A DNA stretch of 26,050 nt, taken from a virus. The stretch spans positions 1-26,050 of IMG/VR virus record IMGVR_UViG_3300006641_000155; one strand, 5' to 3'. Positions 8,320 through 19,512 of the stretch are shown here, one piece after another; position 1 is the stretch's first letter, and each line of letters starts with the position of its first letter. The notes beneath the pieces are model-generated. The model was not told the origin of the DNA. It made no database searches and worked only from the letters and a program-made list of their open reading frames with translations. The position numbers were made by a program, and so were the translations under genes.

Positions 8320-8327
8320 TATTTATA
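8320..8327 (-). promoter_or_regulatory. T4-type late promoter box before gp8
   Basis: This is an exact TATAAATA on the minus strand that overlaps the TAA stop of the gp7-like gene. With the usual 5-base spacer, transcription would start near 8314 and leave a 13-base leader containing a GA-rich ribosome binding segment before the gp8 ATG at 8301. Placement immediately upstream of a start codon supports a real promoter. Confidence 0.7.
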
Positions 8328-13754: not shown

Positions 13755-13762
13755 TATTTATG
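13755..13762 (-). promoter_or_regulatory. Late promoter-like box before gp25 (CATAAATA)
   Basis: A 7/8 match to the TATAAATA late box lies on the minus strand over the stop codon of the spike gene. With a 5-base spacer the transcript would start near 13749 and leave a 14-base leader with an AGGAAA ribosome binding site correctly placed before gp25. The geometry matches the box before gp8. Confidence 0.55.
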
Positions 13763-18505: not shown

Positions 18506-19009
18506 TTATCCCTTGATTACCCATTCGTCAATTTTTAGTTGAACTGCCTTTTCGTATTCTTCTGGCAATATCTGTATTATCTTAGACCTGACATGTGCAA
18601 ATAAGTACCTGTGAACCGCCTTGGGCATCATGTCGTATATTCTCTTTGACTTTTCTAATTGAATGAACAGTTCTGCATTGATAGTGGATCTAGCAGAATC
18701 ACTGGTTGTCCTAAATTCATTCACAGTCTTGATAAATTCTTTTCGTTCACCTGTAGGTAAATAGTGCATATTGACACCTAGAAATCCGTCTTTATACATC
18801 TTAATAGGAAACGTCATAGGATACTTGTCATATATTGTTAGTATCTCTTTAAGTTTCGGATCATACTTATAGAAATACAAACTGCCTATTGTTGGTGTTC
18901 CTGCTGCTCTGTCACTATTTAAAAGTCTTTTCTTAACCGTACCTGAAGTAAGGTCTATGGCCTTTTCATTAATCCATTTCGTTAATTCGTTTTGGGTATA
19001 GTCTGCCAT
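18506..19009 (-). CDS. Conserved T4-like protein of unknown function (167 aa)
   Basis: I recognise no firm family. The recognisable core is YFYKYDPKLKEILTIYDKYP followed by MTFPIKMYKDGFLGVNMHYL (about residues 46-85). It resembles a block I associate with conserved virion proteins of T4-like phages, but I cannot name the gene with confidence. A gp2-like DNA end protector is one possibility, since T4 gp2 is beside gp4, but the length is short (T4 gp2 is about 274 aa). The C-terminal third is helical and basic. It sits between gp4 and gp53. No Shine-Dalgarno precedes the ATG at 19009. Instead a TATAAATA late box ends 5 bases before it. Confidence 0.75.
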   Translation of the reverse strand: MADYTQNELTKWINEKAIDLTSGTVKKRLLNSDRAAGTPTIGSLYFYKYDPKLKEILTIYDKYPMTFPIKMYKDGFLGVNMHYLPTGERKEFIKTVNEFRTTSDSARSTINAELFIQLEKSKRIYDMMPKAVHRYLFAHVRSKIIQILPEEYEKAVQLKIDEWVIKG

Positions 19010-19014
19010 GGTAT

Positions 19015-19022
19015 TATTTATA
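19015..19022 (-). promoter_or_regulatory. T4-type late promoter box placed 5 bases before an ATG
   Basis: This is an exact TATAAATA on the minus strand, immediately after the gp4 stop codon. The spacer ATACC (19014-19010) is followed directly by the ATG of the 167-residue gene. With T4 late promoter spacing (box at about -13 to -6) the first transcribed base would be the A of that ATG, giving a leaderless message. Confidence 0.6.
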
Positions 19023-19469
19023 TCACTTTTTGAATAGATCCGCTTCTGTAATCAGCCTGAAAGTCCATCCTTTGTTGTTACAATACTCTTCGGCTGCTTT
19101 CCATTTTGCTTGATTGACACCCCAGGTAAAGACTTCGTTGATGTAACGTTTGGTCTTTCGTTTAGATGGCACAGGTTCTTGTGTCTGCCCTTTCGGCTTG
19201 ACCTCTAATAAATATACCTGTTTCTTGCCGCTATTGTCATATGCTTCAACATAGAAATCTACAAAGTAACGATGCATACGGTTGTCTATAGGCGAAACAT
19301 ACGGTATTACTACCTCTTCGCTGCCCCAAGATATGACACTTTTATTTGTGTCGCACCAATCCATAACTCTTTTCTCCCAGCCAGATCGATATACAATGTT
19401 ATTAGGATCACCTCTATACTTTTCAGGGTGTTTGGGTTTATAAAATCCTTGTTTGTAGTTTGCAGCCAT
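19023..19469 (-). CDS. gp4: Head completion protein gp4 (TnsA-like nuclease fold)
   Basis: This 148-residue protein is almost the same length as T4 gp4 (150 aa), which completes filled heads before tail joining. The N-terminus is typical of the family (YKQGFYKPKHPEKYRG). The PD-(D/E)XK-type residues expected of a TnsA-like endonuclease fold are visible: E32 in SGWEKRVMDW, D71 in HRYFVDFYVE, and E89/K91 in YLLEVKPKGQ, followed by basic and helical segments. I chose the ATG at 19469 rather than the GTG at 19481 because AGGT lies 7 bases before it and the family begins near MAA-x-YK. It is the first gene of the leftward block, divergent from gp48 across only 43 bases. Confidence 0.88.
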   Translation of the reverse strand: MAANYKQGFYKPKHPEKYRGDPNNIVYRSGWEKRVMDWCDTNKSVISWGSEEVVIPYVSPIDNRMHRYFVDFYVEAYDNSGKKQVYLLEVKPKGQTQEPVPSKRKTKRYINEVFTWGVNQAKWKAAEEYCNNKGWTFRLITEADLFKK

Positions 19470-19512
19470 AATGTACCTCACTAAATAATATGTAGTATTT
19501 TTGGAGTTATCA
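19470..19512. promoter_or_regulatory. Divergent intergenic region between gp4 and gp48
   Basis: The 43 bases between the two divergent start codons must hold initiation signals for both blocks unless transcripts enter from outside. Rightward, ACTAAATA at 19480-19487 matches the late box at 6 of 8 positions, and GGAG at 19503-19506 is the ribosome binding site for gp48. Leftward, AGGT before the gp4 ATG serves as ribosome binding site, but no clear late box is seen. Promoter assignment is weak. Confidence 0.4.

Follow-up and report, generated by a model that had tools for sequence, protein, structure and literature searches.

The window, by which we mean the whole stretch of DNA analyzed here, is a viral sequence record 26,050 bases long in which a head completion or head closure gene (gp4) and a DNA end protector gene (gp2) lie on one strand, 13 nt apart. 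Read on the minus strand, the junction has the order ...TTCAAAAAG TGA TATAAATA ATACC ATG GCA GAC..., with TATAAATA-ATACC-ATG occupying 19022-19007 and the gp4 stop codon (TGA, 19025-19023) directly adjoining the box. The initial annotation had described a late promoter box, a 5-base spacer and an ATG in immediate succession without a Shine-Dalgarno sequence, and reading the window sequence confirmed this at 19022-19007: no Shine-Dalgarno motif precedes the gp2 ATG, and positions -13 to -6 are taken up by the box. The gene downstream of the box, to which the initial annotation gave no name, is gp2. The box thus stands before a virion (late) gene, as gp2 lies behind gp4 and among baseplate genes. 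The gp4 start was set at the ATG at 19469, in an ORF that opens with GTG at 19481. The longest gp2 ORF that can be drawn with ATG, GTG or TTG begins at the ATG of the junction, and therefore no in-frame start of these three kinds lies upstream; in most family members the gp2 alignment begins with the first residue of the N-terminus. A wrongly assigned gp2 start was ruled out by this alignment and by the GenBank starts in Pelagibacter phage HTVC008M. The predicted RNA folding of the gp2 message at its 5' end was unremarkable (z -0.83).

Table 1. Coordinates of the late promoter boxes and associated genes in the window, with the gp25 loci from other contigs whose box lies at an intermediate distance.
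Feature	Position	Strand	Remarks
Late promoter box TATAAATA	19015..19022	-	Exact octamer match; predicted -13 to -6 by the T4 position rule (PMC1524935, as far as its available text goes)
5-nt spacer ATACC	19010..19014	-	Predicted -5 to -1 by the same rule; C (pyrimidine) at -1
gp2 start ATG	19007..19009	-	Longest ORF begins here; by the same rule, +1 is predicted at its A (19009)
gp2, DNA end protector, 167 aa	18506..19009	-	phrog_429, E 8.6e-33
gp4, head completion / head closure	19023..19469	-	phrog_218, E 4.1e-62
Leadered late box TATAAATA, 18 nt before gp8	8320..8327	-	Leader 13 nt, purine-rich site
Leadered late box CATAAATA, 19 nt before gp25	13755..13762	-	Leader 14 nt, purine-rich site
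Leadered late box ACTAAATA, 25 nt before likely ATG 19513 of gp48 (phrog_230)	19480..19487	+	
gp25 group, box at 7-9 nt			L367, L389, L390, L396, L398, L403, L405, L407, L411, L412, L416, L420, L424, L429

Other boxes in the window are placed differently. The contrast drawn in the initial annotation with the boxes of gp8 and gp25, which leave leaders with purine-rich sites, was borne out at both genes, and the box before gp48 is of the same ordinary leadered type, with a purine-rich site. The exact octamer TATAAATA occurs three times in the window (the third copy, at 627-634, falls inside an ORF) against 2.43 occurrences expected, which is not significant alone, and its presence by itself therefore says nothing. 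This count is what would be predicted if a common A/T-rich octamer matched by chance, but the geometry is not, since the seven N[AC]TAAATA boxes of the window would be expected to lie 4-6 nt before any of its 17 gene starts only 0.007 times. We regard a chance match as scarcely credible, and conservation of the arrangement in relatives (below) refutes it.

In the available text of a comparison of T4-like genomes, TATAAATA spans positions -13 to -6, and CTAAATA, its counterpart in Aeh1, begins at -12 (PMC1524935); the late box of cyanophages is given as NATAAATA in the available part of PMC2984593. Applied to a 5-nt spacer, the T4 rule would therefore make the A of the gp2 AUG the +1 base. The leadered boxes that we collected have a purine peak, with C nearly absent, exactly at the T4 +1 place (purine frequency 0.87 in T4, RB49, Syn9 and Syn33, n=89, and 0.75 over all, n=296). 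Fifty late sites are listed in a T4 review, as far as its accessible text goes, and not all of them are proved promoters (PMC2988020). The letters at +1 and -1 are compatible with a start 6 nt past the box, a statement that rests on sequence only and on no RNA data. We take the promoter to be T4-type by its box and by the class of gene behind it, with start site and gp55 dependence inferred only; because no 5' end has been mapped, the leaderlessness of the gp2 message is likewise an inference.

The initial annotation had named disappearance of the box from close relatives as a possible refutation, but none of them has lost it: a box 5-6 nt before the ATG is kept in 10/10 close-relative loci (L003-L008 and L224-L227; four distinct sequences, the rest copies), all ten with the core ATAAATA, and the relatives carry the box variants NATAAATA/GATAAATA. 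In L003-L008 (gp2 68-69% identical; three distinct sequences), [TG]ATAAATA is followed by 5 nt and ATG, and the spacers ATAAT, ACAAT and AAAGC, compared with ATACC in the window, change in letters and keep their length. In the near copies L224-L227 (gp2 67% identical), the box is retained with a spacer of 6 nt. Three loci from the 0.95-Mb scan described below (L001, L002, and L009) were left out; L002 and L009 are one contig with the window's own gp2 (100%) and do not count as relatives.

We also scanned viral contigs with a gp2 alignment (A1), using the protein only, and inspected the best 80 of at least 600 loci, 65 of them distinct; the query held leaderless gp2 genes only, and the sample consequently leans to their kin. 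Among the distinct loci within these best 80, 37 have a box 4-6 nt before the ATG (34 at 4-5 nt and three at 6 nt), two have a farther box (26 and 31 nt), and 26 have none, two of the loci without a box (L232 and L266) being incomplete. A quick tree of 79 gp2 proteins, with SH-aLRT support only, requires six changes to account for the leaderless state (49 rows), against a mean of 24.1 for shuffled states, and the nested starred clades around the window contain 5/5, 8/8, and 23/24 leaderless rows. From these locus counts and clades it follows that box and spacing outlast protein divergence and, as far as the aligned sequences allow us to judge, they persist down to 28-41% identity. The spacing of the box in these relatives is, on the same comparison, not luck. 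In six loci (L229, L230, L234, L235, L237, and L240), CTTGTCAAG / TGTCAAGTG-like repeats lie directly upstream of the gp2 box.

A conserved box could be a real late promoter that serves the genes downstream, from gp53 on, with gp2 translated from gp4-gp2 read-through by reinitiation across the 13-nt gap. The common strand and the short gap mean that read-through from gp4 could also carry gp2 in the window, and in most of the gp2 loci without a box, again among the best 80 of at least 600, gp2 begins on the gp4 stop codon. However, a promoter for downstream genes need not stand 4-6 nt from the ATG, and it stands elsewhere in only 2/39 distinct boxed gp2 loci of that sample. Two cultured Pelagibacter phages also lack the neighboring read-through on which this explanation depends. 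In HTVC008M, gp2 (minus strand, start 18916) and gp4 (plus strand, start 18943) are divergent, with starts as in GenBank, and the gap between them (L101:18917-18942) is 26 bp or 5+8+8+5, that is, two back-to-back boxes with a 5-nt spacer each; the gap is filled by boxes and spacers and therefore leaves no room for a leader. The Mosig gp2 has an intrinsic terminator in front of it (L319, just upstream of 11670, minus strand), a hairpin of 12 bp and -20.3 kcal/mol whose T-run merges into the late box; 5 nt and the ATG follow. Upstream transcription should thus end before gp2 in Mosig, the box being the local source. T4 has a terminator-box fusion too, but there 24 nt separate the box from the ATG, which has a purine-rich site ahead of it. 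We consider it unlikely that the box serves downstream genes alone. Crude gene calls gave divergent upstream neighbors for 15/61 of the close-box starts described below, and only the HTVC008M pair was relied on. At least two of the other calls, G008 and G009, were rejected as miscalls, gp4 being on the same strand there.

Box-to-ATG distances were then collected from 28 genomes or contigs, including 19 metagenomic records with the window among them. The distances form a sharp peak at 4-6 nt and a broad class at 17-35 nt with Shine-Dalgarno-like sites. No box lies 4-6 nt before an ATG in T4, RB49, Syn9, or Syn33, which have 27, 19, 20, and 23 boxes, respectively, at 17-35 nt. Boxes at 4-6 nt number 12 in HTVC008M, six in Mosig, five in RHph_I1_18, two in P-SSM2, and none in BUCT-ZZ01; 17/19 metagenomic records have one to five, and none was found in G006 and G019. 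In the 24 records other than T4, RB49, Syn9, and Syn33, there are 58 ATG starts with a box at 4-6 nt, 36 spread over the ten distances from 7 to 16 nt, and 202 over the nineteen distances from 17 to 35 nt. The rows are not independent (G008/G009 and G002/G004/G012 are near kin); two peaks in the distances were again seen in a separate scan that covered gp4 and gp2 loci (0.95 Mb). Tetramers resembling a Shine-Dalgarno sequence accompany 5/61 close boxes, against 50/75 and 73/132 in two leadered bins. An apparent depletion at 7-16 nt was discarded, as ATAAATA occurs there 27 times against 12-28 for permuted 7-mers, which is background and not below it. The starts at 4-6 nt comprise 58 ATG, 0 GTG, and 3 TTG (gp2 of the window has ATG), and AUG-only starts were rejected as a mark of the leaderless class, since non-ATG starts are too few to separate the classes.

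Starts rich in A and T can be read without a Shine-Dalgarno site, and the A/T-rich box might accordingly work in translation, as an unstructured or S1-binding stretch before the AUG, and not as a promoter. Against this, only the promoter 7-mer peaks: ATAAATA occurs 28 times at a distance (d) of 5 nt and 20 letter permutations of it occur 0-3 times, and over 4-6 nt the counts are 45 versus 2-11, except for TAAATAA (21), a permutation that overlaps the box. At other late genes the identical box lies 17-35 nt away, and it also follows terminators, as it does in T4. A role confined to translation seems to us very improbable.

A promoter that starts transcription on the A of the ATG may be expected to leave traces in the letters around it. 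At 1722 ATGs without a box, the -1 base is A at a frequency of 0.52 and a pyrimidine at 0.40. The pyrimidine frequency rises to 0.80 at d=5 (n=74, Fisher p 6e-12), 0.93 at d=6 (n=14), 0.85 at d=7 (n=13), and 0.93 at d=8 (n=14), and is absent as a signal at d=4 (0.35, n=82), the commonest gp25 form, where G is enriched at -1. The p-values on these letters are descriptive only, because the rows are related. The letters at d=5-8 fit initiation on the A of ATG, as far as base preference can indicate; in the d=4 set, transcription may start one base away or follow a different rule. These d=4 starts, without a -1 pyrimidine and G-rich at that position, together with a group of gp25 genes at d=7-9 (see below), would suit a very short leader of 1-4 nt, with loose start choice and selection merely for a 5'-proximal AUG. 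This is quite unlikely in our estimate: at d=5-8 a pyrimidine precedes the A of ATG at any box distance, and the window itself has d=5 with C at -1. CA/AC steps in +4 to +24 average 4.64 in leaderless starts versus 3.27 in leadered starts (p 4e-5) and 2.85 in starts with no box (p 2e-9), without correction for gene families. CA repeats near the start codon are linked to strong translation of leaderless messages in the available part of a review (PMC9031893).

The predicted leaderless arrangement is not confined to gp2. Protein clustering of the 61 close-box starts assigned 16 to gp2, 11 to gp25, four to gp8, and three to gp4, the rest being a small protein (three), a tail completion protein (two), an unnamed pair (two), and 20 single genes; the gp25 cluster of 11 spans HTVC008M to a Rhizobium phage. 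By this clustering, gp2 and gp25 are the commonest putative leaderless genes found. The gp25 gene of the window is itself leadered. For a scan with gp25, the query alignment (A2) joined nine leaderless genes with the window's leadered one, so that the sample leans to kin, and the best 80 of at least 600 loci included 77 distinct ones. The box stands at 4-6 nt in 55/77 of these, at 7-9 nt in 14, at 16 nt in one, and at 17-28 nt in five, and two have no box; the loci without a box include one incomplete locus (L401). In the group at 7-9 nt, the predicted leader would be 2-4 nt long, unless the start site is shifted. In this group, T is nearly always found at -1.

The distribution of the class follows phage descent: it is strong in HTVC008M and Mosig, is present in a Rhizobium phage, and is bound to lineages. 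Among the 13 isolates that we looked at, only HTVC008M and Mosig have a leaderless gp2. The other 11 do not: S-CAM4, AG-345-P14 (a single-cell record), Yut3, V45v66, SRB7757, F372, and phiM12 (0/7), and T4, RB49, BUCT-ZZ01, and RHph_I1_18 (0/4), the last with a box at 16 nt. A rule tied to alphaproteobacterial hosts was considered and is not supported by pattern counts, with 0 matches of TAAATAN{4,6}ATG in phiM9, two in Caulobacter phage Cr30 (against seven for the reversed pattern), and 0 matches of TAAATAN{4,5}ATG in phiM12. A tblastn search detected a gp55 homolog in 3/16 records, namely HTVC008M and the near-complete G002 and G018; it was not found in the other 13 searched, all fragments or possible fragments, and the window does not extend far enough to reveal gp55.

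Taken together, we think it likely that the window box is a gp55-type late promoter that starts transcription on, or about one base from, the A of the gp2 AUG and so gives a leaderless late mRNA. The box, its spacing, its conservation, the bimodal distances, and the initiator-like letters can be read in the sequences compared here; gp55 use in the window phage, the 5' end, and translation from that end are inferred. In the proposed mechanism, a T4-like promoter of the gp55 type would direct RNA polymerase to the A of the gp2 AUG or to within about one base of it, the resulting late gp2 mRNA would be leaderless, and ribosomes would load via the 5'-terminal AUG and not via a Shine-Dalgarno site. 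Many aquatic T4-like phages would then possess two kinds of late box: leadered boxes at 17-35 nt, most of which come with a Shine-Dalgarno-like site, and leaderless boxes at 4-6 nt, which lack one. The initial annotation had read the junction as a late promoter for a leaderless mRNA, and that reading gains support from the relatives, from distant gp2 genes, from gp25, and from other late genes with promoter-like features; that the transcript begins at 19009 and is translated from there remains unproved.

Two known systems meet in this arrangement. With T4-type late promoters (gp55/gp33/gp45; TATAAATA in T4, NATAAATA in cyanophages, and CTAAATA in Aeh1, as far as the sources available to us go), the window shares the box sequence, and further likenesses are the late structural genes, the absence of any need for a -35 element, and the terminator-box fusions; unlike the gp2 box of the window, the boxes of T4, RB49, Syn9, and Syn33 are leadered, none being 4-6 nt from an ATG by the calls made in this analysis. 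With bacterial leaderless mRNAs, the shared features are a predicted start on the A of AUG, the lack of a Shine-Dalgarno site, the AUG itself, and CA-rich first codons (cf. the available part of PMC9031893); in Sinorhizobium meliloti, 171 such mRNAs have been mapped, all with AUG, according to the accessible text of PMC3616915. The difference is that the start in the window would be set by a phage late promoter box, with 5' ends unmapped. Late promoters of phiKZ consist of TATG with G as +1 (PMC4666361), and there too the start falls within a short motif containing the letters ATG; that system is unrelated, using a phage multisubunit polymerase and no -10-like box, and the available text of that paper does not call its transcripts leaderless. 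A paper on AR9 remarks in passing, in its accessible portion, that phage transcripts are often leaderless (PMC5312081), and in PMC9004378 the word "leaderless" appears only in a reference. We found no description of leaderless late mRNAs in T4-like phages among the titles and abstract openings of open-license PMC literature. We take T4 late promoters and leaderless bacterial mRNAs to be known, and a T4-type late promoter in an inferred leaderless arrangement to be new.

We lean, with some reserve, toward a wider proposal, in which one promoter type yields two translational classes of late mRNA in aquatic T4-like phages (leadered with a Shine-Dalgarno site, and truly leaderless), set only by the position of the box. 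In this proposal, the leaderless class recurs at gp2, gp25, gp8, gp4, and gp3 in distant lineages and may allow 70S ribosomes to be loaded at late stages of infection, once free subunits or initiation factors become scarce. If true, leaderless messages would belong to the regular late expression of water phages that are abundant and mostly uncultured, and would be no rarity. The rule of box, 4-6 nt, and ATG would then also allow gene starts of metagenomic phages to be corrected, and ribosome loading could be studied on a naturally occurring collection of leaderless mRNAs. HTVC008M and Mosig, being cultured, make the leaderless reading testable.

Two minor observations concern other genes. A repetitive protein encoded on the minus strand at 3-488 is truncated by the end of the window; it carries many repeats that resemble GNSYANLVGIS. 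In HTVC008M, the curli gene csgF (L101:7562-8038) likewise has its start 5 nt past a late box.
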